Positions 11,557 through 30,448 of a stretch of 64,000 nt of DNA are shown here, piece by piece; position 1 is the stretch's first letter, and each line of letters begins with the position of its first letter. The DNA is from Haladaptatus caseinilyticus (GTDB taxonomy: Archaea > Halobacteriota > Halobacteria > Halobacteriales > Haladaptataceae), in NCBI RefSeq assembly GCF_026248685.1, contig NZ_CP111042.1, forward strand, positions 62,001 to 126,000, given 5' to 3'. A program made the translations under genes and the position numbers. The notes under the pieces were generated by a model. It had not been told where the DNA came from. It was given only the letters and a program-made list of their open reading frames with translations, and did not search any database.

Positions 11557-12612
11557 CTACAACTCCGGTGTCACACCATGTCCTGGGCCTGTTATCTCAT
11601 GGATTGGACCGTCTCTTATGGGAATAGTGTCATTTTCGAGGAGGCGATTTCCATCAAGGTCGACATAGGAGAACGCGTCAGTACCAGCGACGATGTGTGC
11701 ACTCGTATGGATCCCAATAGCACTTTCGAGCATACAACCGATCATGAGGTCTGTATCTGCACCTTGAGCGATAGCAATAATATCTGCAGTCGCAAGCGGT
11801 CCTGACTTCCCCAATTTCACGTTTATGATGTCTGCGGCATTCTCGGACACGACTCGCATTGCATCTTGTGGCGTGAAGACAGTTTCGTCAGCAGCGATGG
11901 GAACATCGACACGGCGGCAGGTATCGGCGAGTCCAGTAACATCGGTTGCAGGAACTGGTTGTTCAATTAATTCAAGGTGGATACCGCGGTTAGCGACACG
12001 ATCCGCGAACCAGGTGGTCTCTTTAGGCGTCCATCCCTGATTCGCGTCTATTTTGAGTGCAGCGTCCGGAACGGCATCGTGGATGGCTGAGACGCGTTCG
12101 ACGTCTTCACTCACATCATTTCCAGTTTTTATTTTGAGATGTTCGTAGCCCACATTAGCTGCACTAGCTGCTCGCTCGGCTGCTTCGCTGCGGGGAAGGA
12201 TGGGGATTGTCATGTCGGTTTCAACCAATCTCGGTGTGCTGCCGAATAGTTCCGAGAGTGGCATTTCGCGCTCACGGCAGTACGCATCGAGAATAGCCGT
12301 TTCGACAGCAAAGGTCGCTGACGGTGTTTTGGGAAACGTTTGACGAACATCTTGAATGACCGAACGGTAGTTACTCGTTAGACGACCTTTAACGATGGTA
12401 GCCATCGACCGTGCCGCCTCGATGGCTGTTGTTTGGGTCTCACCAGTGACCGGCGGTAATGGCGAACCCTCACCGTACCCTGTGGTTCCGTCGGCAGTCT
12501 CGACAGTAACGAGTACGTTCGACGCCTCGTGTTGCGTTCCGAGAGATATTTCGAACGGTTCAGCGAGTGGCAGATCGAGCGCTTCTACCGATATAGAAAT
12601 AATTTCACTCAT
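11557..12612 (-). CDS. dgcA: DgcA-like N-acetyl-D-glutamate racemase / dipeptide epimerase (enolase superfamily)
   Basis: 351 residues of the muconate-lactonising subgroup. It has the K-x-K catalytic motif (HLKIKTG), metal ligands in KIDANQGW, LIEQPV and ADET, and the second catalytic Lys in INVKLGKSG. This set is that of dipeptide epimerases. The gene overlaps the DUF1611 gene upstream by 4 bases. That pairing matches, from memory, the reported DgcN-DgcA pathway of marine bacteria and halophilic archaea, in which DgcN acetylates D-glutamate and DgcA racemises the product to N-acetyl-L-glutamate. An Ala-Glu dipeptide epimerase activity is the alternative. Confidence 0.8.
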   Translation of the reverse strand: MSEIISISVEALDLPLAEPFEISLGTQHEASNVLVTVETADGTTGYGEGSPLPPVTGETQTTAIEAARSMATIVKGRLTSNYRSVIQDVRQTFPKTPSATFAVETAILDAYCREREMPLSELFGSTPRLVETDMTIPILPRSEAAERAASAANVGYEHLKIKTGNDVSEDVERVSAIHDAVPDAALKIDANQGWTPKETTWFADRVANRGIHLELIEQPVPATDVTGLADTCRRVDVPIAADETVFTPQDAMRVVSENAADIINVKLGKSGPLATADIIAIAQGADTDLMIGCMLESAIGIHTSAHIVAGTDAFSYVDLDGNRLLENDTIPIRDGPIHEITGPGHGVTPEL

Positions 12613-13664
12613 ACTCTCGCCTCGAGTGCGTCTTCGATGGCGTCGAAGAGTTTGTCTGCTCCCGATTCATCGTAGACGTTCGCAGAAATTAGGCCGTGGC
12701 GCAGTTGTTGGATTTCGGGATCACCCCACGTAGAGATGCCAGCGACCGATGCGTCTGATAGTTCTTCTGCGAGCATTCTTTCCTTCTCAATCCCATCAAC
12801 TGAAAGACGTTCGAAGTGGGTTCGCTCTGTTCGGTTGGGATCATCGGCGAGAACGATTGCATCGGGCCACGATCCATGAAGGACTCCTAGTGTCACACTC
12901 GAATATGCGCGATGGGTAAGAGACGCCTGTCCCTCTACAAAGACGACATCGTGATCTTGGGCGACTGCCTTCACCATATCTTCTACGACTCCGGCAGTGA
13001 AGTCGGCAGGAACTCTGTCGACGACGATACCTTCGTGTGCACCCACCATAATCCCGGTCTGACCGGTGGCAACCCATCCAGCGTTCCACCCTGCTTTGCA
13101 GGCAGCTCTGTAGAGTTCGACCGTTGTTGTCCGCTTACCGACGGCACAGTCCGTCCCCAGTGTAAGCACTACCTGGGAGTCGATATCGTCCACGGATCCG
13201 TCACCGACGCGTAGTTTATCGGTCGCGGGTGGTTTGCGGACATCGAAAATTCGGACGTCGTGTTGGTCGGCTAACGACGACCAGTGCTCGTCCTCCCCGA
13301 GAAAAACGTGAAGGCCAGAAACGACATCACACCCTCTACGGATAGCGTTCTCGATGTCTTCGACCCAAGCATCGGGTAGCTCACCGCCAGCAGGAGCGAC
13401 ACCAATAACCAGAACCTCCGCCTCCGGTGCGATATCGAGTGCATCCTCGACGGATTCGACGACGGGTACGTCGGGTGCATCGGCCTTTCCTAAGACGTCG
13501 GTAGGACTTTGTCCGGCAGTTTCAGAGTCTACGATTGCTCTGGTTTCAAACACTTCGCTATGCATTACGACCCCGTTGGCGGTTTTCCCACCTGTCTTGC
13601 CGAACTCGCCCTCCGCGAGGACGAGTGTCGGGACAGAAACGCCAAACGATTCTCGCAGGTTCAT
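12609..13664 (-). CDS. dgcN: DgcN-like D-glutamate N-acetyltransferase (DUF1611)
   Basis: 351 residues with the DUF1611 two-domain layout. The N-terminal Rossmann-like part covers ~1-130 (VLVIGVAPAGGELP). The C-terminal domain carries a P-loop-like LGTDCAVGKRTTT and GWVATGQTGIMVG, followed by VVFVEGQASLTH. It was long annotated as an epimerase/dehydratase; pairing with an enolase-superfamily partner points to DgcN, which would make N-acetyl-D-glutamate from D-glutamate and acetyl-CoA. It is first in a two-gene operon, with a motif related to the island operator at 13706-13722. Confidence 0.78.
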   Translation of the reverse strand: MNLRESFGVSVPTLVLAEGEFGKTGGKTANGVVMHSEVFETRAIVDSETAGQSPTDVLGKADAPDVPVVESVEDALDIAPEAEVLVIGVAPAGGELPDAWVEDIENAIRRGCDVVSGLHVFLGEDEHWSSLADQHDVRIFDVRKPPATDKLRVGDGSVDDIDSQVVLTLGTDCAVGKRTTTVELYRAACKAGWNAGWVATGQTGIMVGAHEGIVVDRVPADFTAGVVEDMVKAVAQDHDVVFVEGQASLTHRAYSSVTLGVLHGSWPDAIVLADDPNRTERTHFERLSVDGIEKERMLAEELSDASVAGISTWGDPEIQQLRHGLISANVYDESGADKLFDAIEDALEARV

Positions 13665-13782: not shown

Positions 13783-14919
13783 CTAATCGACTCGATACCG
13801 TTCGATAGCGTCCTCGTTCAGCGACACACCTAACCCGGGAGCGTCGGGAACAGTAAACGTATTCCCGCCCGGTGTCCACTGTTCTCGCTCTTCGATTAGC
13901 AAATCGACGGCGTGAACGTTCAGAATGCCTGTTGGATATACAACTACAGGTGAAGCGGCGGCGAAGTGAGCGTTGGCCGCGGCGCCGACACCGAGTTCAA
14001 GCATACTTCCCATGAAACAGGGAAGTCCATGTGCATCGGCAACAGCCGCTACGTCGCAAGCCCTGACAAGCCCGCCCGTTTTCGCAAGTTTGATGTTGAC
14101 AATGTCGCAGGCGTTGTGGCGGGCGAGGCGCGCCACATCAGCTGGTGAGAAACAGGACTCGTCAGCCAGAACGGGAACACCAGTCGTCTCACGTACCCGT
14201 CTCAATCCCGCAATATCGCTGTGCGGAACCGGCTGCTCGACCAGTGTCAGTCCATTAGCAACCTCATCGAGTGTGCGGACTCGAGTCACGGCGTCCGCGA
14301 CGGACCATCCTTGATTCGCGTCGATCCGAATTTTTGCATCAGGGACTGTCTCCGCGATCGCGGCGACAGCGTTTCGTTCGATTTCGAAGTCCGGCCCACC
14401 TACTTTGATTTTGAATGATGTATATCCCGCCTCACGCGCTTCACGTGCTTCTTTTCGCACTTCTTCGGGGGGTTTGATGCCTACTGAGTAATGGAGGTCT
14501 ATCATCGGTTCGTTGTTAGGCGCACCACCCAATAGTTCGTACACGGGTAAATCGAGCGTCTTGCCCAGTGCGTCGTGTAACGCCACATCGATTCCGTAAA
14601 GTGGAAAGGGTTCGCTCGAGAGTTCTCGTTCGATACGATCGACGAGACGTGGTATTCGATGAATTGGCTCGCCCTCGACAACGGGGGCAATTATGTCCCT
14701 GAGTAAATCGACTATGGCACTGCGCGTCAAACCATGGGGCCACGTCGACGATGGTGCTATTTCGCCGACACCGACGACTCCCGCGTCTGTTTCTATTTTG
14801 ACGAGGACATGGTCATACGCTCCTTGTCCGCCCGTTGCAACCGAGAGACTCGTTTCGTACGTAGTCTCTGCTGGAACGGAGACTGGAATCGTTTCGACCG
14901 CCGTCACACAGGTTGTCAC
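13783..14919 (-). CDS. Mandelate racemase / muconate-lactonising family epimerase
   Basis: 378 residues, a second enolase-superfamily member only about 25-30% similar by eye to the DgcA-like protein. Catalytic set: FKIKVGG (K-x-K), RIDANQGW, LVEQPVPHSD, ADESCF and VNIKLAKTGG. Again the two-lysine arrangement is that of dipeptide epimerases and N-acyl amino acid racemases. Its start overlaps the stop of the upstream D-aminoacylase by 4 bases, so the two are co-transcribed. A sensible pair is racemisation of N-acyl amino acids or dipeptides followed by deacylation of the D form. Substrate not determined. Confidence 0.85.
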   Translation of the reverse strand: MTTCVTAVETIPVSVPAETTYETSLSVATGGQGAYDHVLVKIETDAGVVGVGEIAPSSTWPHGLTRSAIVDLLRDIIAPVVEGEPIHRIPRLVDRIERELSSEPFPLYGIDVALHDALGKTLDLPVYELLGGAPNNEPMIDLHYSVGIKPPEEVRKEAREAREAGYTSFKIKVGGPDFEIERNAVAAIAETVPDAKIRIDANQGWSVADAVTRVRTLDEVANGLTLVEQPVPHSDIAGLRRVRETTGVPVLADESCFSPADVARLARHNACDIVNIKLAKTGGLVRACDVAAVADAHGLPCFMGSMLELGVGAAANAHFAAASPVVVYPTGILNVHAVDLLIEEREQWTPGGNTFTVPDAPGLGVSLNEDAIERYRVD

Positions 14920-16511
14920 TGTCGAATCACCTCCCCAGGTCGTGCACTGGTGTGCTTGCCGTCCCTGACGACGAATTCCCCATTGACGAGGACGTGTTTG
15001 ATGCCAACGGGGTAGACGGCCGGATTGAGGAAGTCACCTGGCTGATGAATTGCTTCGGGATTGAAAACAGTGAGATCGGCACGAGCGCCCTGCTTGAGAA
15101 CCCCCCTGTCCTTGATCCCCAATCTGGAAGCGGGCATCCCGGTCATCTTGTGAACGGCTTTCTCCAGTGGGATGACTTCCTCCTCTCGGACGTACTTACC
15201 GAGCACGTGCGGGAACGTGCCATAATTACGGGGGTGGGGAACGCCTTCGCCCAAAGGGCCACACGGGCAAAGTGAGGATCCGTCACTGCCGACCATCGTG
15301 AGGTCGTGACGCATCACGTATTCGACGTCATCTTCGTCCATCCCAAAGTTGACGTGCATCGTTCGGTTTTCATCCTCCAGAACGATATCAAGTAATATCT
15401 CGGCGGGAGGTCGGTTTTCGTCATCGTGGTCAGCGAGTTCAGCAATCGTCTTTCCTTGGTACTCTCGCAGATCAGGATTCTGAACGTTCGTCACGAGGAT
15501 GCCGTCCCAGTCATTCGTTCGATCAGTGGCTAACTCTTTCCGAATTCGAGCACGCTTTTCCTTGTCGCGAAGGCGTTGCATGAGTGCATCGTCACCCCCG
15601 TCGTGTGCCCAATTGGGTAAGAGCGCACCGAGACTGGTCGACGACGCGATGTACGGATACTGATCGCATTGGACTTCGATACCGTCGCGTTTGCGGGCAA
15701 GTTCCATCCGTCGAAGGGTATATCGAACCTTTCCCCAATTTTTCGGCCCGACAGCCTTGTGATGCGAAACTTGGACTGGGATACCCGCACGGCGACCGAT
15801 TTCCAGGGTCTCCTCAACGCTCCCAATGAGATCGTCACTCTCTGAACGCATGTGGGTCGCATAGATCCCACCATACTCTGCGGCCACTTCGGCGAGTGCG
15901 ACGACTTCGTCGGTTTTGGCGTAGCATCCCGGTGGGTAGAACAGCCCAGTCGAAAGGCCAACGGCGCCGTTTTTCATAGCCTCTGCGACGAGGCTTTGCA
16001 TCTCGTCGAGTTCCGCCGTCGTCGGCGCACGATCCTCATAGCCGACGACGGCGGCACGAATGTTGCCGTGACCGACGAGTGAACCGACGGAGAGCGAGAG
16101 GCCGTCACGTTCGAGGAAATCAAAGTAGTCAGCCATCGACTCCCACTCACTTGCATCGACCTCTTTCGCGAGTCCGTTACTCGCAAACCAATCGTCGATT
16201 GCCCGGTCTGCCGAGCCATATCGCGGGGCGGCGCTTGTCCCGCAGTTACCGACAATTTCGAGGGTAACTCCCTGTCTAACCTTGCTATGTGCATCACGGT
16301 TGGCTGGCAGCGTGAAATCGGAGTGTGTATGGATATCGATGAATCCTGGCGCAATGACGCTGCCGTCTACGTCCACCACGGTTTCTGCATCGTCTTCAAC
16401 CTGACCGATGGCTCCGAGTTGCCCATCATTTACTGCGACCTTGCCACGGAACCACGGCGACCCGGTGCCGTCGATTATTCGTGCATCTTCGAAAACTACG
16501 TCGTAGCTCAT
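14916..16511 (-). CDS. N-acyl-D-amino-acid deacylase (D-aminoacylase), paralogue 1
   Basis: 531 residues of the amidohydrolase superfamily. Seen: a small beta-sandwich N-terminus, the metal motif HTHSD at the start of the barrel, the Cys ligand region TLEIVGNCGTSAAP, the second His region (YATHMRSES), VSHHKAVG, the late Asp in MVGSDGSSLCPCG, and the C-terminal PASRLGIKDRG. It removes acyl groups from N-acyl-D-amino acids. It is the only one of the three paralogues here that keeps the NCG cysteine. It is first in an operon with the epimerase at 13783-14919, with the island motif at 16548-16565. Confidence 0.9.
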   Translation of the reverse strand: MSYDVVFEDARIIDGTGSPWFRGKVAVNDGQLGAIGQVEDDAETVVDVDGSVIAPGFIDIHTHSDFTLPANRDAHSKVRQGVTLEIVGNCGTSAAPRYGSADRAIDDWFASNGLAKEVDASEWESMADYFDFLERDGLSLSVGSLVGHGNIRAAVVGYEDRAPTTAELDEMQSLVAEAMKNGAVGLSTGLFYPPGCYAKTDEVVALAEVAAEYGGIYATHMRSESDDLIGSVEETLEIGRRAGIPVQVSHHKAVGPKNWGKVRYTLRRMELARKRDGIEVQCDQYPYIASSTSLGALLPNWAHDGGDDALMQRLRDKEKRARIRKELATDRTNDWDGILVTNVQNPDLREYQGKTIAELADHDDENRPPAEILLDIVLEDENRTMHVNFGMDEDDVEYVMRHDLTMVGSDGSSLCPCGPLGEGVPHPRNYGTFPHVLGKYVREEEVIPLEKAVHKMTGMPASRLGIKDRGVLKQGARADLTVFNPEAIHQPGDFLNPAVYPVGIKHVLVNGEFVVRDGKHTSARPGEVIRQ

Positions 16512-17085: not shown

Positions 17086-17291
17086 CAGACAGTCACCTCA
17101 CTTTTGTCTATAGACCGTTCGGATCGATGGTAATCAGACACTCTCGTGGTAAAACTGAATCGCATCTTGAACGTGTTATCACCGGTGAAAATTTTGATAT
17201 CCTGACCGACTGGGATAGCTCCCTTTGCCTGACTCTCCTTCGAGAACACTGAGGATTCGACCTGCAATGCGAACAGCCGTCGTCCCCACAT
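17085..17291 (-). CDS. Small hypothetical protein in a coupled operon
   Basis: 68 residues. The main support is layout: its ATG overlaps the upstream TAA (TAATG) and its stop overlaps the next gene's ATG (TGATG), exactly filling the space between two genes. The composition (basic N-terminus, MRFSFTTRVSDY) is less acidic than its neighbours, so coding is likely but not certain. No domain recognised. Confidence 0.5.
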   Translation of the reverse strand: MWGRRLFALQVESSVFSKESQAKGAIPVGQDIKIFTGDNTFKMRFSFTTRVSDYHRSERSIDKSEVTV

Positions 17292-18076
17292 TACGCATCC
17301 CTCTCTTTTGATGGTAGGTCATTGTGATCGACAAGTGCGTATTCACAGCGCTCACATCGTCGTTTCCCGACTAGCGAGCGACCGCCACAACAGGTGACAT
17401 CTGGGCCATCAGGTTCACTGAAAGTCTTCTCGCAGGATGGGCAGTTGGGAACGCCGTACCGTAGTAATGAGAGCATCGTACGTCGTTCTCGGCTTTGAAG
17501 GTCTTCCCAATCGGGAAGAATCGTGGAAAGATACTCCGCATTGGCAGTGTCGATTGCTGCTATCGGTCGGGCCTTCCATTGTCGTATACTCATCTCGTCA
17601 ACATCATGGATGAACCAGTTTTCACCGCCACTCAGTGACCGACGAACCGACGCTTCGACGGCACCTGGAAAAGCGTCGACTGCCGCCTCTTTTAGCACCT
17701 CCGAGTCTGCAATCAGAGTCTGAGTTCGTTCACACACGCGGTCAGCCGTTTGCGCACTGAGAGAGAGGTCGTCGTTGAGCACTCCGGACGAAATCAGCCT
17801 CTCTCCCGTCGGGAGTTTTGTTGGGGACTCTGCTTTTTCTAGCCGGGAAAGGATCGGTTCAGGAAGTTTGCGAGTCAGCCGAGGCGTTCCTGGAATCAAA
17901 TATCCACGAAATCCGACTGCGACCACTCCCATGATAGCGGCGATGCCGGCGATGATGGGATGGCTGGTCTTCGCAATGACACCGACACCGAGGGCGGCTA
18001 GTCCAAGATTTACGATTGTACACGGCCAGCACCGATTCCTCCCCGTGTGTGCTGGATTCCGGTATTGCATACTCAT
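17291..18076 (-). CDS. Membrane-anchored protein with C-terminal zinc ribbons
   Basis: About 261 residues. It begins with a Cys pair (NRCWPCT), then two closely spaced hydrophobic segments (IVNLGLAALGVGVIAKT; IIAGIAAIMGVVAVGF) that form a hairpin in the membrane. A long soluble region follows, and the C-terminus has three CxxC-type pairs (CPSC, TCCGG, CERC) that look like a double zinc ribbon. Starts at 18070 and 18076 are both possible. I do not know a function. It heads a coupled operon with the two small genes downstream. Confidence 0.65.
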   Translation of the reverse strand: MSMQYRNPAHTGRNRCWPCTIVNLGLAALGVGVIAKTSHPIIAGIAAIMGVVAVGFRGYLIPGTPRLTRKLPEPILSRLEKAESPTKLPTGERLISSGVLNDDLSLSAQTADRVCERTQTLIADSEVLKEAAVDAFPGAVEASVRRSLSGGENWFIHDVDEMSIRQWKARPIAAIDTANAEYLSTILPDWEDLQSRERRTMLSLLRYGVPNCPSCEKTFSEPDGPDVTCCGGRSLVGKRRCERCEYALVDHNDLPSKERDA

Positions 18077-18160
18077 CCACTCGGGTATTCGGAACCGTAA
18101 AGCCTCCACCGACTATGCTGGGGGGTGGGTTCAAGCCACTTCGACCGCTCCCGTCACCAC

Positions 18161-18803: not shown

Positions 18804-18830
18804 GCCCAAACTCCGGATATGTGTTTGCAT

Positions 18831-20564
18831 ATGTCTAGCACTCGGCGAAACTTCATGAAAAAGATGGGTGCTGCCGGCACAGCAGTCGGAAGCGTTAGCC
18901 TTGCTGGCTGTAGTACCAACAACAACAACGGCGGCAACAATGGTCCCTCGAATAAGAAGGTAGTCAAAGACCTCCCGAAGAACCGAAAAATCGGGAAGAA
19001 GGTTCACCTGAGCAATACTGAGAAATATTGGGCTGAACGGTACCAAGCGAACGTTGTAGTCGACAAATGGTTCCGAGAAAAGCTTGGTGTTCCAATTCAA
19101 ACGAAACCGGTCGAAATCACCGTCCTCACTTCACGAGAAGACAATGGCAAATTCGATCTCACCACCTACAACTGGTGTGCAGACAACGGTGACCCCGATG
19201 GTATCATCGTTAACCGCTTTTATAAAGACGGCTCTGAGAACGACTACGGGTTCAATAATCAAAAATACAATGAATTAGCGATGAAACAGCGGAAGGAAAC
19301 TGATGAAAAGAAGCGGCAGGAACTCGTTCACGAGTGCCAGAAAATACTCGGTGAACAACGTCCTGAAAATCAGTTCCTCTACAACGTTTATCCGTACACG
19401 TTCAACAACCAGCGGATCAAGGAAGATTCGACCATCGTTACCGTTACCGGACTTCGCAATATCTGGAACTACACCCAGATGGAGCCCAAAAACGACCAGG
19501 GCAAAACCATCGTTACGAACAATTGGGATCCATCCGATCAGCTGAATCCGCTCCACATCAACGGCATTGGACCGAGTCGGAATTGGACTCCGATACGATT
19601 CATGCACGACTTCCTTATTCGTCCTGATGAGAATCAAAAGCCGACGCCGTGGGCAGCAAAAGACTACGAGTGGAAGGACGATACAACGCTCACCGTTAAT
19701 CTCAAGCAGGGAATGACCTTCCATGACGGCGAGCCGGTCACGGCTGACGATGTCGTGTACACCTTCAATCTCATCCTTGACACGGAGCCGCCGGCGTATA
19801 CGAACAACGTCGTTGATGTTGTCAAGAGTGTCGAGAAAACTGGCAATCTCTCCGTGAAATTCAATCTGAAAGAAGTATATGCCCCATTTCTTTCCACGAC
19901 ACTTGGATTAACGCCAATCCTCCCCAAACATTACTGGACGAAATTACTACGGAAGACAGGCAACCAGAAGACCCCGTGGAAAGTCTCCATCAGTAATAAG
20001 AACCCAATCGTTGCGAGTGGCCCATTTAAATGGGGTACTTGGGATCAAGGTTCGAAATTCGAGATGCCAGCATTCAAGAAGCACTCGTTCGCTGCACCGA
20101 ATATCGAAAAACGGGTACAGAAACCCCTTGCGACGCGTGATGCCGAGGTTGAGGCGATGAAAAACGGTGACTACGACCTCCTCGACTACTGGCACGGAAG
20201 CCCGTCGTCGCTCAAAGATGCGGCTAAGAACACGAAGCATCTCACACTTGTTCAGACCTCGGACGATTGTCGGCAAGCTTGCTGGATGAACACCCGGAAC
20301 CCACCATTTGACGATGTTGCCTTCCGCCAGGCAGCAAACGCCCTCGTGATGAGTGCACAAGAAGTCATCATCAACGAAATTTATGGTGGGTTTGGGAACA
20401 AAGCGACATCCCCGATCAATAAGACGCTCAAGTTCTGGCATAACTCCGACACTCCCATGTTCAAAAATGGTGCCGAGGGTGCCGTTGAAATTCTCAAGGA
20501 TGCTGGATATGTCTGGGACGAACAGGGCAATATGTACTATCCAGAGGGGAAGACCGGTAATTAA
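18831..20564 (+). CDS. Oligopeptide ABC transporter substrate-binding lipoprotein (SBP family 5) with permuted domain order
   Basis: 577 residues. Tat/lipobox signal: RRNFMKKMG … VSLAGC. The next ~190 residues look like the part that normally ends family-5 binding proteins: FDLTTYNWCADNGDPDGIIV, then NDYGFNNQKYNELAMKQRKE and ELVHECQKILGEQRPENQFL. After this comes what is normally the mature N-terminus (KTIVTNNWDPSDQLNPL), then LKQGMTFHDGEPVTADDVVY and the hinge and lobe III part. The protein stops right after LKDAGYVWDEQGNMYYPEG, where others continue into the segment that is here at the front. It captures peptides outside the cell for the permeases downstream. Confidence 0.85.
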   Translation: MSSTRRNFMKKMGAAGTAVGSVSLAGCSTNNNNGGNNGPSNKKVVKDLPKNRKIGKKVHLSNTEKYWAERYQANVVVDKWFREKLGVPIQTKPVEITVLTSREDNGKFDLTTYNWCADNGDPDGIIVNRFYKDGSENDYGFNNQKYNELAMKQRKETDEKKRQELVHECQKILGEQRPENQFLYNVYPYTFNNQRIKEDSTIVTVTGLRNIWNYTQMEPKNDQGKTIVTNNWDPSDQLNPLHINGIGPSRNWTPIRFMHDFLIRPDENQKPTPWAAKDYEWKDDTTLTVNLKQGMTFHDGEPVTADDVVYTFNLILDTEPPAYTNNVVDVVKSVEKTGNLSVKFNLKEVYAPFLSTTLGLTPILPKHYWTKLLRKTGNQKTPWKVSISNKNPIVASGPFKWGTWDQGSKFEMPAFKKHSFAAPNIEKRVQKPLATRDAEVEAMKNGDYDLLDYWHGSPSSLKDAAKNTKHLTLVQTSDDCRQACWMNTRNPPFDDVAFRQAANALVMSAQEVIINEIYGGFGNKATSPINKTLKFWHNSDTPMFKNGAEGAVEILKDAGYVWDEQGNMYYPEGKTGN

Positions 20565-20584: not shown

Positions 20585-21568
20585 ATGATAGAAAAGCGCT
20601 ATTTGATTCGACGATTGCTACTCATGGCGATATCGATGCTCACCGTCATCACAATCTTGTTTTTCCTGTTTCGGATGGTGCCCGGTGGCCCGATGTCCGC
20701 GATCATGAGTCCCCGGATGAGTCCGGAAGCAAAACGGCAGGTTGCCGAACAATTCGGCCTCAACGAGCCGATTTGGAAACAGTACTTACTGTACATGCAG
20801 AACGTCCTCCAGCTTGACTTCGGACGGTCGTTCTACTACAGTCGTCCGGTGACGAGTATCATCGCGGATCGATTCATCAACACGATGAGCCTCATGCTCA
20901 CCGCGTTCCTCATCTCGTACACGTTTGGTGTATTCTTCGGTGCTCACCTCGGATGGATTCGTGGGACGGGCAAGGAGCGCGCTGGCATGCTGGTCGTCCT
21001 TTTCATTCGCTCGTTGCCCGTATTCTGGACCGGGATGGTCGTCCTATATGTGTTCGCCTTCCACCTCGATATGTTCCCTCTCGGTGGAATGCGGAGTGTG
21101 AGCGCAAGCTACACGGGGAACGTTGGGAAACTCCTCAGCCCCGACTTCCTATATCACTTGGCGTTACCGGTGTTTACGCTCTGTACGTACTACACTGGAT
21201 TACCGCTACTGCTGATGCGGAACAACCTCCTTGAGGTTCTTTCGGAGGACTACATCGATACAGCACGGGCAAAAGGGCTGTCCAACCGTCGTATCCTGTT
21301 CAACCACGCGGCACGAAATGCTATCCTGCCGGTGATTACCGCGTTCGCCATCGCGATCGGCTTTGCTGTCGGGGGTCAGGTTCTCATTGAAACGGTGTTC
21401 TCCTGGCCCGGCCTCGGACGAGAAATGGTTCAGGCCTCCCTCAGGAGCGACTATCCGTTGGCTCAAGGCGCATTCGCACTACTGTCGATAATTGTGATTA
21501 CGATGAACTTCGTCGCGGATATCGCATACACGGTGCTCGATCCGCGCGTTTCCTTAGGAGCGAAGTAA
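20585..21568 (+). CDS. Oligopeptide ABC transporter permease (DppB/OppB type)
   Basis: 327 residues, six predicted membrane helices. The start MIEKRYLIRRLLLM is followed by the conserved periplasmic segment (PGGPMSAIMSPRMSPEAKRQ, FGLNEPIWKQYLLY), typical of DppB-type permeases. The EAA coupling loop reads YIDTARAKGLSNRRILFNHA, and VLIETVFSWPGLG is the usual late motif. It forms the membrane channel with the DppC-type subunit. 20 bases after the binding-protein gene and 3 bases before the next permease. Confidence 0.92.
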   Translation: MIEKRYLIRRLLLMAISMLTVITILFFLFRMVPGGPMSAIMSPRMSPEAKRQVAEQFGLNEPIWKQYLLYMQNVLQLDFGRSFYYSRPVTSIIADRFINTMSLMLTAFLISYTFGVFFGAHLGWIRGTGKERAGMLVVLFIRSLPVFWTGMVVLYVFAFHLDMFPLGGMRSVSASYTGNVGKLLSPDFLYHLALPVFTLCTYYTGLPLLLMRNNLLEVLSEDYIDTARAKGLSNRRILFNHAARNAILPVITAFAIAIGFAVGGQVLIETVFSWPGLGREMVQASLRSDYPLAQGAFALLSIIVITMNFVADIAYTVLDPRVSLGAK

Positions 21569-21571
21569 CAC

Positions 21572-22513
21572 ATGAGCGAAGAAACTGCACAACCTGCGAA
21601 ACGGACCGTCACAGAGACGAAACAGGGTTGGCGGCGGTTCGTCCAAAACCTCCGCCGATCGGCTATCGAGCAAGCACGGGTGTTCAGCGAGTCGAAGATG
21701 GCGATGGCTGGACTCACTATCATCGCGTTCTACATTGTCATCGCGCTCATTGCGCCCTATATCGCCCCATACGGCCCCTATGAACGTCTTTATACCACGA
21801 ACGGCGGATGGGCAGACCTCCAGTCGCCGAGTCTCGCGCATCCACTCGGAACGACGAAGGCAGCTCACGACGTGCTATCCCAACTCCTCCTCGGTACGCG
21901 TATCGCGATGTTCGTTGGGATACTAGGTGCATTCATGGTTGCCGTCATTGGCACCACTGTCGGCATCATCGCCGGCTACTACGGCGGTTGGGTCGACGAA
22001 GTCGTCATGCGTCTCGTGGACGTCCTCTACGGCCTCCCGTTCATTCCGTTTGTCATTGTCCTCGTGACGGTATTGGGCGCGAACGTCTGGAACATCATCC
22101 TCGGTATCGCGTTACTGTACTGGCTCTCGACCGCCCGTGTCGTTCGTTCAGAGGTATTAACCGTTCGCGAACGGCCGTACGTCGAAGCCGCACAGGCAGC
22201 CGGTGCCAGTGACTTCCGTATCATGCTGGTTCACATCCTGCCGAACGTCATCCCGCTTTCGGCGCTGTACGCGGCCATTGCGGTCGGGTATTCCATCGTC
22301 GCTCAGGCCAGCATCGCATTCCTCGGGTTCGGCGATCCGTCCGTCCCATCTTGGGGCGTGATGCTCCAGCGTGCGTTCGTGACGCAGTCGTTCGGCACAG
22401 CGTGGTGGTGGGTGTTCCCACCAGGCCTCTCGATTACGCTCGTCGTAATGGGCGCGTATCTTGTCGGTCGCGGCTACGAGGAGATCGTCAATCCACAACT
22501 CAGGGAGCCATAA
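21572..22513 (+). CDS. Oligopeptide ABC transporter permease (DppC/OppC type)
   Basis: 313 residues. A cytoplasmic N-terminal stretch of ~45 residues, then the first membrane helix and the family segment SLAHPLGTTKAAHDVLSQLL (normally HPLGTDxxGRDVLSRLI). The coupling loop is RPYVEAAQAAGASDFRIMLV and the end motif VMGAYLVGRGYEEIVNPQL. It pairs with the DppB-type subunit. The next ATPase gene starts 1 base after its stop (TAACATG). Confidence 0.92.
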   Translation: MSEETAQPAKRTVTETKQGWRRFVQNLRRSAIEQARVFSESKMAMAGLTIIAFYIVIALIAPYIAPYGPYERLYTTNGGWADLQSPSLAHPLGTTKAAHDVLSQLLLGTRIAMFVGILGAFMVAVIGTTVGIIAGYYGGWVDEVVMRLVDVLYGLPFIPFVIVLVTVLGANVWNIILGIALLYWLSTARVVRSEVLTVRERPYVEAAQAAGASDFRIMLVHILPNVIPLSALYAAIAVGYSIVAQASIAFLGFGDPSVPSWGVMLQRAFVTQSFGTAWWWVFPPGLSITLVVMGAYLVGRGYEEIVNPQLREP

Positions 22514-22514
22514 C

Positions 22515-23600
22515 ATGAACCAAACAACAACGAACTTCGACTTCGATGATGGTGCACCGCTGCTGGAGGCAGAGGAACTCGACGTGACCTACACCACGAG
22601 TTCCGGTGAACTCACCGCTGTAGACGGTATCAGTTTCGCCGTGGATGAAGACGAGATTTTCGGTCTCGTCGGCGAGTCCGGATGCGGAAAGAGCACCGTC
22701 GCGCAGGCCATCCTCAGCCTTCTCCCGAGTAACGGCCGTGTTGCCTCCGGTTCAATCCGCTTTCGCGGCGTCGAATTAACGGAACTCTCGAAGCGGGAGA
22801 TGGATGCGCTCCGCTGGGAACATCTTTCACTCATCAGCCAAGGGGCGATGAACGCACTCAACCCGGTTCATCGTATCTCCAGTCAAATTATCGAGGCTAT
22901 TCAGGCTCATCGCGACGTTTCCAAAGCGGACGCACGTGAGCGAGTAGCGGAACTGTTCGAGGTCGTCGGTCTCGATCCGGATAGAATGGACGACTATCCC
23001 CACCAGTTCTCCGGCGGCATGAAACAGCGCGCATACATCGCTATGTCGCTGGCACTCGATCCAGATCTCATCATTGCGGACGAACCGACAACAGCGCTCG
23101 ACGTCATCGTCCAGGATCAGATTCTCAAACGGTTGAAAGAGCTTCGCGACGAGCTCGGTATCTCCGTAATCATCATTTCTCATGACATCAGCGTCATCGC
23201 GGAGACGTGCAACCGACTTGGCGTAATGTATTCGGGCAAGCTCATGGAATACGGCGATCTGAGGGATATTTTCTCAGATGCGTTCAATCCGTATACGTTG
23301 GGACTTCAGAATGCCTTCCCGACACTCCGTGGCGAACAACAAAACCTCATCAGCATCCCCGGCAGTCCGCCGTCCATCGCGGATCTCCCTAGCGGATGTC
23401 GGTTTATGCAGCGATGTCCGTTTGCCGTTTCCGAGTGTGCGGAGAATCATCCGCCGCTGTACGAGGTGGGGGAAGACCACTATTCTGCCTGCTATCGACA
23501 CGACGTGATCGAAATGATTCGACGGGAGTCGAAACGTCGCGAGACGTGGCAACGTACGGACAAAAACCAATCCGGTCTGGAGGGCTATAGCGATGACTAA
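22515..23600 (+). CDS. Oligopeptide ABC transporter ATP-binding protein (DppD type)
   Basis: 361 residues. Walker A GESGCGKS, Q-loop ISQGAMNALNP, signature FSGGMKQRA, Walker B LIIADEPTTALD, H-loop IISHD, then the oligopeptide-ATPase C-terminal extension with Cys residues (CRFMQRCPFAVSEC), which in this family can hold an iron-sulphur cluster. I use the ATG at 22515 rather than an in-frame start inside the permease gene. It energises peptide uptake with the DppF-type partner, whose start overlaps its end by 8 bases. Confidence 0.92.
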   Translation: MNQTTTNFDFDDGAPLLEAEELDVTYTTSSGELTAVDGISFAVDEDEIFGLVGESGCGKSTVAQAILSLLPSNGRVASGSIRFRGVELTELSKREMDALRWEHLSLISQGAMNALNPVHRISSQIIEAIQAHRDVSKADARERVAELFEVVGLDPDRMDDYPHQFSGGMKQRAYIAMSLALDPDLIIADEPTTALDVIVQDQILKRLKELRDELGISVIIISHDISVIAETCNRLGVMYSGKLMEYGDLRDIFSDAFNPYTLGLQNAFPTLRGEQQNLISIPGSPPSIADLPSGCRFMQRCPFAVSECAENHPPLYEVGEDHYSACYRHDVIEMIRRESKRRETWQRTDKNQSGLEGYSDD

Positions 23601-24741
23601 TGGTACACAAACCGAGTACATCATGGAATGCGATGGGTTAAAACAGTACTTCGACGCTCAACAGGGGCTCATAGACAGTCTCTTTGGCGAGAAGAAACAC
23701 GTTCGTGCCGTCGACGGAGTTGATCTTCAAATTTCAGAGGGAGAAATCGTCGGTCTCGCTGGCGAATCAGGATGCGGGAAGACGACCTGCGGGAAGACGC
23801 TCATCCGCCTGCTCGAACCCACGGATGGAACGGTCAGATACCGCGGAAAAGATGTGACCAATATCACGGGATCGGATCTCAAGCAGTTCCGCCGCGATGT
23901 CCAAATTATCTTCCAAGACCCCTTCGAGTCACTTAATCCTCGTCGAACTGTCTTCGACACGGTGGTCGAGCCGCTCAAGATACATAATATCGGAAACGCG
24001 GAGGAGCGGATCGAACGGGTGCACGAAGCACTCGAACGCGCTGAACTTACGCCGCCAGAACAGTATTTTGAGCAGTATCCACACCAGCTCTCGGGAGGGG
24101 AGAAACAACGAGTGGCCATCGCTCGTGCGCTCGTTCTCGAACCCGATTTCCTCCTCGCCGACGAGCCCGTTTCCATGCTCGATGTGTCCATTCGGGCAGG
24201 CGTGTTGAACCTCCTTCAACGACTCAACGAGGAACTAGGACTTACTATCCTGTTTATCAGCCATGACCTTTCACTTCTTAGGCAAGTGTGCGACCGAATA
24301 GGTATCATGTATCTCGGTCGCATAATCGAATTCGGGGAAACTGAGTCGGTCATTCAGAATCCGACTCATCCATATGCGAAAGCGTTGCTCGGGGCCGCTC
24401 CGGAACCGGATCCGTTTCGGGAGCGTGAACACGTCGAAATTCAGGGATCCATTCCCGACCCGATCAACCTCCCGTCCGGTTGTCGGTTCAAGGGACGGTG
24501 TCCGGAGCGGGAGGCCATCTGTGATTACATTGACCCACCGTTGCGATCCATTACTACCGAATACGGCGACAAAAAACGGGTCGCTTGTCACGCCTATTAT
24601 GACGAAGAGGACGTCGCAGAATTCGAAACGCAGCTTCAGGCAATGGAGGTTCCTGAGACTGCCAAGGAAAAGCCCCACGAGCACGTCTCTTCGGACGAGA
24701 CAGCAAAAAATCAAGCCGATCAGGACGCTCGGGCCGACTAA
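23593..24741 (+). CDS. Oligopeptide ABC transporter ATP-binding protein (DppF type)
   Basis: 382 residues. Walker A GESGCGKTTCGK, signature LSGGEKQRVAIARA, Walker B FLLADEPVSMLD, H-loop FISHD, and the Cys-rich C-terminal extension (CRFKGRCPEREAIC). The N-terminal insert YFDAQQGLIDSLFGEKKHVR is typical of the DppF/OppF subunit. A charged ~40-residue tail follows the domain. It is last in the five-gene operon 18831-24741; a strong hairpin lies 70 bases after the stop. Confidence 0.92.
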   Translation: MTNGTQTEYIMECDGLKQYFDAQQGLIDSLFGEKKHVRAVDGVDLQISEGEIVGLAGESGCGKTTCGKTLIRLLEPTDGTVRYRGKDVTNITGSDLKQFRRDVQIIFQDPFESLNPRRTVFDTVVEPLKIHNIGNAEERIERVHEALERAELTPPEQYFEQYPHQLSGGEKQRVAIARALVLEPDFLLADEPVSMLDVSIRAGVLNLLQRLNEELGLTILFISHDLSLLRQVCDRIGIMYLGRIIEFGETESVIQNPTHPYAKALLGAAPEPDPFREREHVEIQGSIPDPINLPSGCRFKGRCPEREAICDYIDPPLRSITTEYGDKKRVACHAYYDEEDVAEFETQLQAMEVPETAKEKPHEHVSSDETAKNQADQDARAD

Positions 24742-24848: not shown

Positions 24849-26378
24849 TCATGGTGGATATGCACCATCGTCCATGTCGTCAAGGGGGAACTGCGGCCGC
24901 CGAATGTGATTGAAATCGAATTTTCGTGGATCCATTGCGACGAGACCGATGCTGTTTATGGGAATGACGCGACTCGCCAGTGGTTCGTAATCTGCACGAT
25001 AGTGATTCGTGCTCTTGACGACCAACACGTCGAGTCGTTCGGGTTGGATGCCGACGTGTCGCCATATTTCGGCATCGAGTGGCTGCAGTCGGTTCTTGGT
25101 GACAATGACGCTCACTCCGTTCTCGTGGCCACATTTTAGGTGTACCGCTGTGCCGAGATGGTTCTCACTCCCCGTTCCCATCGGGCCAGTGTTGACGAAC
25201 TCGCCGTCGGTTATGGCTTTAACATACCCATCAACGTCCTCGATTGCTTCTCCGTGTAGGTCGTCTGTTTTGCCACCCATGGTTACGGTGATGTGCTCAC
25301 CTACGCCGGCGTTGACGCAGTCGGCGACGACGTCTGGGTCGTGCATGATGGCAAAGCCTGCGTTCGTCAACTCTTGGTCTATCATTTCGCGCAGGACTGT
25401 CGTTCCATCTGCAGCGCCGCCGCCGCCGGGGTTATCACCCACGTCTGCCATCACGATCGGACCATCTTCGGCGTCGAGATCCGCGGCCGCACGTTGCGCC
25501 TCTGCGACCGCTTCGGGTGGAGTTGGGAAATCTCCGACGAAGTCTTCACGTCGGTTCCAAATATACTCCGCAAGTTCGCGGGCGACCGCTTTTGCCGCGT
25601 CTGTGTCCCCATCTGCGACGACCGGTATCGAGAACCCCATCGAGGGGATATCTGCTTGATGGAACCCAGGGAACACGTTCACCTTCCAGATCTCGTCGCG
25701 CTCTTCGTACTCGCGGGCTTTTGCCATCACCTCGGCCATCGGCCCTTCAAGGGTATTTTGAAGTGGCCCCATCGCGAGCACCGGCGGGCGTTCGATATGC
25801 ATCGTCGGATCGGTTTCTCCACGCATCGTTTCGGTGAGAATGCGCATTCCCCGGCGGCCGGTGTCTCCCATATCTATGTGTGGGTACGATTCGTAGGCGA
25901 CGAGTGCGTCCGCCTCTTCGACGAGCTGGTCGGTGATGTTTCCGTGTAGGTCGAGCGTCACCACGATGGGGACGCCATCGCCGACTATTTCTCGGGTCTT
26001 CGTTACGAGGGGGCCCTCGCCGTCCTCCATCCCCTCAGGGACCATCGCTCCGTGGAGGCAGAGCAGAACGCCATCGAGAGCGTCGCGGTGCTTTTCGACA
26101 GCGTCAAGAATTTGGTTGCAATAGAAGTCGTACGTTTCTTGGGGGACGATTCCCCCAGGAGTGGCTGACGCCGCGACCGTGTGGACGAGTTCGATTTGTT
26201 CATTCTCCGCGACATCTATTGCCCCGCCGACAGCGGTGTTCGTTTCTCGCAACTTGTGGTCGACTTGTTCCCCTAAGTACTCACGCCGCTCCTGAAACTT
26301 CGGCCGGTCAGTCGGTGTCGTCGCGAATGTATTCGTCTCGTGTGAGAAATCTCCTACGAGTACTAGCTCGTCAGACAT
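24849..26378 (-). CDS. M81 family metallopeptidase (MlrC / microcystinase C-like)
   Basis: 509 residues from MSDELVLVGDF. The N-terminal domain has the signature HETNTF, then VTLDLHGNI and AYESYPHIDM; the later glycine-rich VGDNPGGGGAADGT is also characteristic. MlrC-like enzymes are zinc peptidases that finish the breakdown of the linearised cyclic peptide microcystin. Most relatives act on unknown small peptides or amides. In this island a role in hydrolysing D-residue-containing or modified peptides is plausible but inferred. The island motif is upstream at about 26412-26431. Confidence 0.87.
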   Translation of the reverse strand: MSDELVLVGDFSHETNTFATTPTDRPKFQERREYLGEQVDHKLRETNTAVGGAIDVAENEQIELVHTVAASATPGGIVPQETYDFYCNQILDAVEKHRDALDGVLLCLHGAMVPEGMEDGEGPLVTKTREIVGDGVPIVVTLDLHGNITDQLVEEADALVAYESYPHIDMGDTGRRGMRILTETMRGETDPTMHIERPPVLAMGPLQNTLEGPMAEVMAKAREYEERDEIWKVNVFPGFHQADIPSMGFSIPVVADGDTDAAKAVARELAEYIWNRREDFVGDFPTPPEAVAEAQRAAADLDAEDGPIVMADVGDNPGGGGAADGTTVLREMIDQELTNAGFAIMHDPDVVADCVNAGVGEHITVTMGGKTDDLHGEAIEDVDGYVKAITDGEFVNTGPMGTGSENHLGTAVHLKCGHENGVSVIVTKNRLQPLDAEIWRHVGIQPERLDVLVVKSTNHYRADYEPLASRVIPINSIGLVAMDPRKFDFNHIRRPQFPLDDMDDGAYPP

Positions 26379-26411
26379 ATGCGACGATTTAGCAGACCGA
26401 TGATTAAAGAC

Positions 26412-26431
26412 ACTCCCTCTCATGGAGGGGA
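26412..26431. promoter_or_regulatory. Island operator/UAS motif before the M81 gene
   Basis: Forward-strand CTCCCTCTCATGGAGGGG, an imperfect palindrome; on the gene's strand it aligns with the shared motif around CCATGA-N-AGG. Near end 34 bases before the start codon, with TATA-like CTTTAATC (about 26402-26409) between. Confidence 0.5.
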
Positions 26432-26464: not shown

Positions 26465-28060
26465 CTACTTTCTGATGGCACAGCCAGGACGGTTTTCAGT
26501 CATCTCGCCTCCACAAACGGCAAATTCTCCGTTGACGAGGACGTGATCAATTCCCTTGGGATACCGTCGCGGATTTTCGAACGTGGCGCGACTCTCGACT
26601 CGAACGGGATCGAAGACGACGAGGTCAGCGTCCATCCCTGGTCGGATGACGCCCTTGTGGTCAAGACCCATCGCCCGAGCAGGGAGCGAGGTCATTTTGC
26701 GAATCGCTTCCTCCAGTGTGAGAAGATTCTTTTCGCGGACGTATGTCCCGAGAATGCGTGGATAAGAACCGTACACGCGTGGGTGCGGCTTCCCTCCGAA
26801 AAGCCCGTCCGTTCCAACGCATACCCGCTCAAACGAAAGGATTTCTTGCACGTCGTTCTCGTCGAGCATGTGTAGGGTTATGCTCACACTGAGTTCTTCC
26901 TCGACGAGGAGCTCACACACTGCATCGACCGGTTCAATATCTCGGTCGTTGGCGATTTCAGCGACGCTTGCCCCTTCGATTTCGATATTCTCCTCGCTTT
27001 CGACGTTCGCGATTACGACGTTGTCCCACCCGGAGAGTGCACCGATGTTCTCCCATCCGCTGATGCGCCACTCGGTGATATCTTGGCGAATCCGCTCGCG
27101 GGCATCGTCGTCGTTCAAATACTCGAGCGTTCCCTCCGGACCCTCCGCATGAACCCAAGGTGGGAGAACGGCCGATAACATCGTACTTCCCGCGGTGTAG
27201 GGGTACTGTTCGGCAGTAAAATCCACACCTCGTTCGCGTGCCGCTTCGATAAGCGACGTCGCCCGGTTCACCTTCCCGTGTTGCTCGGGGCCACCCATCT
27301 TGAAGTGTGAAAGATGCAGGGGAATTCCTTCTTCGGCCCCGATATCCACGAATTCGTCGAAGGCATCCCAAATCCATCTTCCTTCGCTCCGAATGTGAGC
27401 GACGAAGGGGCGTCCGTACGGTCCGAGTCGAGCAGCAAGTTCCTGAACCTCGTGTGTCCCGGCGTAGGTACAGGGAGTGTAAATAAGGCCAGTCGAGAAG
27501 CCAACGGCACCATCCTCCAGTGCCTCTGTCACTAAGTCGGCCATTTCCTCGAGTTCTTCGTCCGTCGGGTCGCGACTGTCCATCCCCAAGACGTTGAATC
27601 GAACCGTTCCATGCCCAACAAGAAGAGCGGTGTTTAGTGCTACTCCCGACTCCTCGACGGCGTCCAAGTAGTCGCCGACGCTGCCCCAACTCCACACCAT
27701 GTCCGTCTGTCCGGCGAGCGCCCCGAGTTGCTTCGCCCACTCCTCGGCGCCTCCTTCTCGATACATCGGTGCCATCGAAAATCCGTCTTGCCCGAGTATT
27801 TCGGTCGTGATTCCCTGTCGAACTTTCGGTGCGAGCGTTGGATCGTCGAATAGTTCGATATCAGAGTGAGAGTGCGTATCGACGAACCCTGGGCATACGA
27901 CGCGACCATCTGCAGTCAGCGTCGTCGTCGCGTCGATATCAGGATCAGTGGTACGGTAGATATCAGTAATTCTGTCATCAGTAACTCCAACCGCACCATG
28001 AAACCATGGGGCTCCTGTTCCATCCACGATTTTCGCATCCTCGATGAGGAGGTCAGTCAT
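26465..28060 (-). CDS. N-acyl-D-amino-acid deacylase family protein, paralogue 2
   Basis: 531 residues from MTDLLIEDAKIVDGTG. Same fold as paralogue 1: HSHSDIELFDDP at the first metal site, FVAHIRSEGRW, LHLSHFKMGGP, VCVGTDGLFGGKPHPR and LPARAMGLDHKG. The position of the NCG cysteine reads ILGQDGFSMAP, so the usual Cys metal ligand is Asp. Paralogue 3 has the same change. The two likely form a subfamily with altered metal ligation or substrate. Single gene with the island motif upstream at 28097-28115. The ATG chosen fits the conserved N-terminus; an upstream start adds 20 odd residues. Confidence 0.88.
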   Translation of the reverse strand: MTDLLIEDAKIVDGTGAPWFHGAVGVTDDRITDIYRTTDPDIDATTTLTADGRVVCPGFVDTHSHSDIELFDDPTLAPKVRQGITTEILGQDGFSMAPMYREGGAEEWAKQLGALAGQTDMVWSWGSVGDYLDAVEESGVALNTALLVGHGTVRFNVLGMDSRDPTDEELEEMADLVTEALEDGAVGFSTGLIYTPCTYAGTHEVQELAARLGPYGRPFVAHIRSEGRWIWDAFDEFVDIGAEEGIPLHLSHFKMGGPEQHGKVNRATSLIEAARERGVDFTAEQYPYTAGSTMLSAVLPPWVHAEGPEGTLEYLNDDDARERIRQDITEWRISGWENIGALSGWDNVVIANVESEENIEIEGASVAEIANDRDIEPVDAVCELLVEEELSVSITLHMLDENDVQEILSFERVCVGTDGLFGGKPHPRVYGSYPRILGTYVREKNLLTLEEAIRKMTSLPARAMGLDHKGVIRPGMDADLVVFDPVRVESRATFENPRRYPKGIDHVLVNGEFAVCGGEMTENRPGCAIRK

Positions 28061-28096
28061 GCACGTACCTTTCTGAGCATTGCAAAAAAACAGGCT

Positions 28097-28115
28097 ACCG
28101 CGTATGAACGGGGGT
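28097..28115. promoter_or_regulatory. Island operator/UAS motif before D-aminoacylase 2
   Basis: ACCGCGTATGAACGGGGGT inside a longer inverted repeat GCTACC (28094-28099) / GGTAGC (28113-28118). Near end 37 bases from the start codon at 28060, the same spacing as for D-aminoacylase 1. A T-run (28084-28090) lies at the TATA position. Confidence 0.6.
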
Positions 28116-28137
28116 AGCAATCCTATGCAAGCGGGAG

Positions 28138-29151
28138 TTAGCCGTCGTCGACAGCGTAGTGGAGTTTCGTCGTCGAGAGATTGCGCCCTGAAACGGGCAC
28201 GACGACGGTGCTTCCGGAAACGTTCATCTCTTGCACTGCACCGAGTGCGGCGGATGAGGCCCCTTCCACAATGAGCCGCTCGTTGGCGAACATCGTCCGA
28301 ATCGTCTTTTGAATAGTTTCCTCGCTCACGAGTCGCATATCGGCGAGGCGTTCACGCATGATCTCCGTGGTGAGCGCGAACGGAACACGTGAGGCGATCC
28401 CTTCGGCCATCGTGGTGACCTGTTCCCTGGGGTCGAGATGTCCTTCGTTAAAGGCACGATAGGTTGCATCCGCGCCCTCCGACTGGACACCGATGACTTT
28501 CGCATTCCCGAGTGCACCGACCGAGAGGCAATAGCCAGCAGCACTGCTTCCACCCCCGACGGGGCAGACAACCGTGTCAACTTCCGGGAGATCCTCCAGT
28601 ATTTCTAATCCGGCGGTACCGACGCCAGCGATAAGATCGGGTTCGTTCGCCGAGTGGACATACCGATAGCCCTCCTCTGCTGCACGCTCCTCGGCCCACT
28701 CTCGTGCGTCGTCGTAATCAGCACCGTGTTCGACGACAGTTGCACCGAACGTCTCCATCGCTGCGACCTTTTCAGGGTTCGGGTTTTCCGGAACTACGAC
28801 AGTCACTGGGACGTCGAACTCCCGTCCAGCGTACGCAACGGATTGACCGTGATTTCCCGTCGAAGCAGCGATGAGACCGGCATCACGGAATTCGTCTTCG
28901 AGTCGATGACCGATGGTGACGCCCCCGCGAACTTTGAACGCGCCTGTCGGGAGCGTATCCTCACGTTTCAGATACACATCTGCATCCGTCACATTGGAGA
29001 GGGTTTCGCTCCGAACGAGCGGCGTTCGTGGAAGATAGCGTCGCACGATGTTCCGCGCTTTGTATACATCCGCGGGTGTCGGGGCCGTAAGGTCGTGGTA
29101 CGGGAAAATGGTCGTTGCGTCGGGTGAGTCGATTGGGTCGTATTCGGTCAT
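28138..29151 (-). CDS. PLP-dependent threonine/serine dehydratase-like enzyme
   Basis: 337 residues of fold type II. PLP lysine in PTGAFKVRGG, substrate loop ASTGNHGQS, phosphate loop PVGGGSSAAG, LVEGASSAALGA-type end (IVEGASSAALGAVQEM). It would deaminate Thr/Ser to 2-oxo acids, or act on a beta-hydroxy D- or L-amino acid. No regulatory ACT domain, so it is a catabolic rather than biosynthetic type. The start overlaps the stop of the M20 hydrolase gene by 4 bases, so the two are one operon. Confidence 0.87.
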   Translation of the reverse strand: MTEYDPIDSPDATTIFPYHDLTAPTPADVYKARNIVRRYLPRTPLVRSETLSNVTDADVYLKREDTLPTGAFKVRGGVTIGHRLEDEFRDAGLIAASTGNHGQSVAYAGREFDVPVTVVVPENPNPEKVAAMETFGATVVEHGADYDDAREWAEERAAEEGYRYVHSANEPDLIAGVGTAGLEILEDLPEVDTVVCPVGGGSSAAGYCLSVGALGNAKVIGVQSEGADATYRAFNEGHLDPREQVTTMAEGIASRVPFALTTEIMRERLADMRLVSEETIQKTIRTMFANERLIVEGASSAALGAVQEMNVSGSTVVVPVSGRNLSTTKLHYAVDDG

Positions 29152-30392: not shown

Positions 30393-30429
30393 CTGGTGTA
30401 GAATCGTATCCAAGGGTTTTGATTCCGCC

Positions 30430-30448
30430 ACCTCCCATGAAAGGAGGT
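30430..30448. promoter_or_regulatory. Shared island operator between divergent M20 and D-aminoacylase 3 genes
   Basis: ACCTCCCATGAAAGGAGGT, within the inverted repeat CACCTCC (30429-30435) / GGAGGTG (30443-30449). It is 34 bases from the ATG at 30482 and 38 from the ATG at 30392, so it could serve both. TATA-like TTATTTAG (30450-30457) follows for the plus-strand gene. This is the most symmetrical example. Confidence 0.65.

Follow-up and report, generated by a model that had tools for sequence, protein, structure and literature searches.

The window analysed here is a 64,000-nt stretch of Haladaptatus caseinilyticus DNA, in which positions 18819 to 20564 (+) form an open reading frame of 581 aa. 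A downstream in-frame ATG at 18831 gives a protein of 577 aa, and we preferred this start to 18819, the longest ATG start, because the Haladaptatus orthologue L019 starts at the matching position in the alignment. Residue numbers of the window protein are counted from 18819. Based on profile matches and the L019 alignment, the gene (18831 to 20564, +) encodes a solute-binding lipoprotein of family 5 with permuted segments. It begins with a Tat signal (RR, residues 9-10) and a lipobox up to Cys31 (18843 to 18911, +); R9, R10, G30 and C31 are invariant across 31 haloarchaeal permuted proteins. The Tat model TIGR01409 matched weakly, above the cut-off with the front part alone and slightly below it with the whole protein. 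A low-complexity tether, recognised from the sequence and from low predicted confidence at residues 16-43, leads from the lipid anchor to the first strand (18912 to 18998, +). Next comes the front block (residues 61-205; 18999 to 19433, +), equivalent to the ordinary C-terminal segment of family 5. The gap between the profile blocks marks the junction (residues 206-238; 19434 to 19532, +), at which the former C-terminus is joined to the former mature N-terminus. The back block (residues 239-575; 19533 to 20543, +) starts at the mature N-terminus and extends as far as the AGY helix and the hairpin behind it. The AGY motif itself (20502 to 20510, +), located by sequence and profile blocks, stands shortly before the new C-terminus, whereas normal proteins continue past it into the segment now at the front.

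Downstream on the same strand are a DppB/OppB-type permease (20585 to 21568; NCBIfam Opp2B, E 1.9e-73), a DppC/OppC-type permease (21572 to 22513; NCBIfam Opp4C, E 2.7e-76), an OppD-type ATPase (22461 to 23600; PRK09473 OppD, E 1.1e-96), whose start is uncertain and which overlaps the preceding gene, and a DppF/OppF-type ATPase (23593 to 24741; PRK11308, E 1.3e-102). Opp/Dpp-type permease and ATPase partners, as usual for PF00496 proteins, thus accompany the window gene, and they also accompany its relatives. Judged from sequence, the gene product would be exported by the Tat route, anchored by a lipid, and serve as the substrate-binding component of an ABC importer of the Opp/Dpp type.

The wider region (11557 to 33359) is a D-amino-acid catabolic cluster around the permuted transporter and also holds threonine-dehydratase/synthase-like genes. 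On the minus strand, it contains an L-Ala-D/L-Glu epimerase or DgcA-like racemase (11557 to 12612; NF041118, E 2.3e-81, and NF042940, E 7.1e-49, both below cut-off), a DUF1611/DgcN-like N-acetyltransferase (12609 to 13664; NF041892, E 4.2e-55, below the curated cut-off), and, by profile matches, a second epimerase or muconate-cycloisomerase-family enzyme (13783 to 14919). A D-aminoacylase-like amidohydrolase (14916 to 16511; PRK09061, Amidohydro_3) is a likely pathway neighbour. Beyond the operon lie an M81 (MlrC-like) metallopeptidase (24849 to 26423; PF07364, E 1.9e-98; PF07171, E 1.9e-56), a second D-aminoacylase-like amidohydrolase (26465 to 28120; profile matches) and an M20 hydantoinase/carbamoylase-family amidase (29148 to 30431; TIGR01879, 421.9 bits, above cut-off), all on the minus strand, and a third D-aminoacylase-like amidohydrolase on the plus strand (30482 to 32101; profile matches). 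The gene at 17291 to 18109 (-) has a product of 272 aa that contains paired CxxC motifs and matches nothing in Pfam; similar proteins are encoded at the corresponding position of the Haladaptatus loci L018-L020.

To describe the segment order, we compared the window protein with family models. The whole protein matched SBP_bac_5 (PF00496) with E 7.6e-53 and 180.4 bits, against a curated cut-off of 32.4, and the match fell into two pieces, Pfam positions 288-366 at residues 60-139 and then 1-284 at residues 274-570. The front part alone reached 24.7 bits (E 1.6e-5), below the cut-off; among NCBIfam models it matched OppA and DppA at their C-terminal ends only (405-502 of 543, E 1.5e-7, and 390-500 of 535, E 1.7e-6, respectively). 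As a candidate front domain, Phospholip_A2_3 gave a weak match (E 0.009, below cut-off) and was rejected.

We then built a profile from 22 normal-order proteins and ran 44 permuted proteins against it before and after in-silico un-rotation. In the native window protein, profile positions 329-473 lie at residues 61-205 and positions 17-335 at residues 239-575. The family model is covered once, with no segment duplicated or absent, so that, as the original prediction held, each piece occurs once in rotated order; its front does correspond to the family-5 C-terminal region, and the feared loss of a C-terminal domain to another gene is countered by a model complete within this one protein. After un-rotation, the window protein gave a single match (17-469) and its best-domain score rose from 212 to 269 bits. 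The same gain appeared in all 44 homologues, with a median rise from 220 to 281 bits and two partial matches becoming one full-length match in each. Two blocks in rotated order were found in 52 of 52 permuted proteins. The median end of their back block was 326 and the median start of the front block 329; the extremes were 295-350 and 286-336, a spread of about 20-40 profile positions. PDB sequences align to the window protein as separate stretches in the wrong order, and the permuted order was absent from the PDB matches listed in our sequence and fold searches. Since the usual N-to-C order of PF00496 is rotated here, we filed the protein as a permuted variant and not as an ordinary member of family 5.

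AlphaFold2, run with an alignment of 31 permuted sequences, predicted a single confident fold with the family-5 elements rotated (pLDDT 87.8, pTM 0.86), and confidence fell below 50 in the signal and tether only. The normal-order control L110 gave a pLDDT of 82.7. In the predicted models, window strands and helices E61-66, H72-89, E93-98, H100-108, E114-119, H127-133, H148-159, H163-180 and E183-196 match the L110 series from E374-380 through E499-512, and window E280-287 through H551-561 correspond to L110 E100-106 through H356-365. Foldseek aligns in sequence order; therefore, as expected from a permutation, the permuted model matched family-5 structures over only about 370 columns, with TM values up to 0.49/0.57 among the matches listed, versus about 500 columns and up to 0.80/0.89 for L110. 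These models suggest that the window protein should fold as an ordinary two-lobe clamp of the cluster-C kind. The circular permutation claimed by the original prediction is backed by sequence profiles, more than 100 collinear relatives and structure prediction, and we regard the protein, with very little doubt, as a circularly permuted SBP_bac_5 member with a binding-protein role.

In ordinary family-5 proteins, the N- and C-termini lie together on lobe I, to which the tether of normal lipoproteins is attached. In the window protein, the old C- and N-termini would be fused through a short linker, and new termini would be opened in one lobe II loop, the one that links the AGY helix to the beta strand after it. 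From the known family-5 domain limits, the tether should join lobe II. The protein would then deliver ligand to the permease pair as usual, with its lipid tether on lobe II and not on lobe I.

The search for orthologues showed that the rotated order is widespread. Three Haladaptatus species carry orthologues, 71-85% identical, with the same order and operon as in the window, so neither chance nor assembly error accounts for it; chance is also ruled out on E-values, and a sequencing or assembly artefact by the repetition of the order across many genomes, some of them assembled as single contigs. About 20 family-5 genes, four of them permuted, are present in the genome from which the window comes. 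Among the matches listed, at least 89 of the 145 sampled Halobacteria genomes gave junction-spanning matches. In our bacterial survey, which covered plasmids, single-piece full-length or nearly full-length matches came from the alphaproteobacteria Ketogulonicigenium, Microvirga, Neorhizobium, Nitratireductor, Roseomonas, Maritalea and Salipiger. Two-piece plasmid hits from Cetobacterium, Cytobacillus, Deinococcus and Streptomyces were weak, and those checked had the normal order. Most of the permuted homologues inspected adjoin permease and ATPase genes. The permuted form is stably inherited within a large haloarchaeal/alphaproteobacterial clade; the permutation itself stands as originally predicted, and the one protein on which that prediction was made is a member of this clade.

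What the importer carries may be read from its neighbours. Because the operon lies within a D-amino-acid catabolic cluster, a D-amino-acid-containing peptide or an N-acyl-D-amino acid is a likely kind of ligand, to which we would give an even chance. D-aminoacylase, DgcN/DgcA-like and M81 genes flank the operon in the window, and the H. halobius operon is likewise set among D-aminoacylase-annotated, DgcN/DgcA-like and M81 genes. The gene dgcN is key to a D-glutamate racemisation pathway (PMC12363236). The window proteins fall short of equivalog level (187 bits against a cut-off of 480 for NF041892; 167 against 400 for NF042940); they appear to be related enzymes, and their sequences point to a possible function in a D-glutamate pathway. 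A realistic alternative, which we rate a little short of even, is that the neighbours are coincidental and the ligand is a hydantoin, an N-carbamoyl compound, an ordinary peptide or a metal chelate. The shared flanking genes of the window and H. halobius speak against this. Our D-amino-acid expectation also draws on alphaproteobacterial relatives, which adjoin genes for M28/M20 peptidases, hydantoinase/oxoprolinase and a racemase. On the other side, members beside hydantoinase/oxoprolinase, creatininase or flavin monooxygenase genes indicate that ligands probably vary. Such neighbours suggest a ligand without proving it, and the contexts differ among relatives.

We also considered that the permutation is real but that the product, instead of serving an importer as its receptor, acts as a sensor or has degenerated into a non-functional relative. 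Some permuted members do occur away from permease genes, as at L091 in Haloferax gibbonsii. This reading is nevertheless improbable, given an open frame with conserved Tat and lipobox residues, an operon of two permeases and two ATPases conserved in archaea and bacteria, and the 58-87% identity kept among haloarchaeal relatives. The L091 gene (1772-3652) stands beside a PAP2 phosphatase gene.

Beyond this importer component, a second archaeal lineage preserves both segment orders. Locus L107 of genome G244 (one contig of 2,178,400 bases) belongs to the same phylum but to a family outside Halobacteria, and its genus is presumably Archaeoglobus. The L107 protein aligns in two rotated blocks, at 72-74% identity, with the normal-order protein L110 of genome G303: residues 24-192 match L110 364-532, and residues 200-520 match 53-370. 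Between the two genomes, the permeases are 76-78% and the ATPases 70-72% identical. Among 27 gene-bearing genomes of that family, the gene is permuted in only G244, G283 and G236. G220, G232, G343 and G349 belong to the same genus and have the normal order; their proteins share 83-87% identity with the permuted G244 protein. All seven genomes of the genus contain an orthologous permease. In the tree, the genus forms one clade (100/99) and so do the three permuted sequences (100/99). The permuted species have the binding-protein gene adjacent to and divergent from the permeases. In normal-order species (L167-L170), this gene and the orthologous permease operon lie apart, in G220 by 85 kb. A receptor of about 500 residues thus occurs in both orders within one genus, a natural before-and-after pair.

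The means of anchoring differ among permuted proteins. By eye, a lipobox is present in Halobacteria and in the G244 members and mostly absent from the alphaproteobacterial ones, which have ordinary signal peptides. G303 carries, besides its normal-order copy, a more distant permuted gene, L106 (4230-5972), whose product has a C-terminal PGF-type transmembrane tail. This tail is seemingly a surface anchor at the end opposite to that of the lipoprotein forms. As the lipobox varies among groups and L106 has such a tail, anchoring is unlikely to be the whole explanation of the permutation.

How often the rotation arose was examined on a tree of 47 un-rotated proteins, built with IQ-TREE under a mixture model. 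The permuted order required four changes on this tree, and a single change was found in no bootstrap tree. Permutation at this loop is recurrent, and the same rotation arose independently in the Archaeoglobus-type genus. One ancient permutation, ancestral to all permuted family-5 proteins, would make the recurrence only apparent, and the break does lie in the same loop in every group. In approximately unbiased (AU) tests, joining the main clade with the Salipiger/Neorhizobium sequences was compatible with the data (p-AU 0.36), but a single clade of all permuted forms (p-AU 1.8e-55) and a union of the main clade with L106 (p-AU 8e-4) were rejected. A single origin would also require several reversions to normal order, and it sits badly with the identity between L107 and a normal-order protein and with the presence of both forms in one genus; we consider it very improbable. 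The divergent permuted genes of Salipiger and Neorhizobium (L052, 4818-6557; L133, 3983-5737) stand beside LLM/nitrilotriacetate-type flavin monooxygenase genes, suggesting a different ligand; they possibly represent a further independent permutation. With recurrence as the preferred reading, we offer one tentative, rather doubtful proposal as a whole: the lobe II loop may be a natural hot spot for permutation that was opened on at least three independent occasions (in the haloarchaeal/alphaproteobacterial clade, the L106 lineage and the Archaeoglobus-type genus), with the permuted form selected, for example through a moved anchor or altered closing or release.

A rival reading takes the front part for an unrelated domain fused to a shortened binding protein whose own C-terminal part is lost or encoded elsewhere. 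Its probability is negligible: the front part alone does score modestly against Pfam, but it matches the exact missing end of three models, un-rotation completes the match in all 44 homologues, and in the Archaeoglobus-type pair the front block shares 83-87% identity with the C-terminal block of the normal-order gene.

For the genuine permutation, we infer that duplication followed by deletion is the most likely route. A binding-protein gene would be duplicated in tandem and in frame, the N-terminal part of the first copy would be lost with its signal peptide kept, and the second copy would be truncated after the AGY helix. Behind its signal, the normal gene encodes a linker with EE(V)K, and the first strand comes next. 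The normal gene has this EE.K motif once, but the permuted G244 gene has it at each of its two fusion points, as duplication followed by deletion predicts: before the front block (...QKEEAKKLKIEL...) and at the junction of the old termini (...YYLVYSEEQKDTITIGV...). The G244 chain ends in ...KKAGYSE and stop. The motif is short and could recur by chance, and leftover duplicate fragments were not found beside the Archaeoglobus-type permuted gene, so the route is unproven.

Most known natural circular permutations separate distant relatives, in which the event can no longer be reconstructed. Public annotation names the permuted proteins plainly as 'ABC transporter substrate-binding protein' and omits the permutation, so models or constructs based on the usual linear order will be misleading. 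Consistent with the original prediction, we found no description of a permuted family-5 protein in the open-access papers searched; permutations are, however, known in other binding-protein families, and what is new here is the family-5 case. In the accessible text of the respective reports, TpMglB-2 (Tp0684) is a circularly permuted Type I, or cluster B, glucose-binding protein (PMC4990184), and CPSARST revealed circular permutation relations among glycine-betaine-binding proteins (PMC2395249). TpMglB-2 resembles our case as a natural permutation of an ABC-importer binding protein, with a family across several taxa, but it differs in binding-protein class and break point, and that text describes no recent normal-order sister (PMC4990184). 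The best PDB matches listed for the window protein, by sequence and by fold, are family-5 proteins and not Type I sugar-binding ones. The tethering explanation given for TpMglB-2 in the same text (PMC4990184) fits poorly here, because the alphaproteobacterial permuted proteins appear to have no lipobox. The glycine-betaine-binding proteins likewise show permutation among ABC-importer binding proteins, but in another family and between divergent structures, and the accessible text yielded no family-5 case (PMC2395249). Compared with family 5 itself (PF00496; OppA, DppA, AppA and NikA), the window protein has all segments, Opp/Dpp permease and ATPase partners and lipoprotein export in common, but its chain opens with what is usually the C-terminal segment and closes on the AGY helix and hairpin. 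The closest comparison is with the normal-order proteins of G244's genus (L140-L143), which share 83-87% identity with the G244 protein and have the orthologous permease, but which keep the normal segment order and have their genes apart from the permeases that the permuted gene adjoins. Such a same-genus pair, together with the large permuted clade, makes the origin and tolerance of a permutation testable, as well as the question of whether attaching the clamp to the membrane through one lobe or the other makes a difference.
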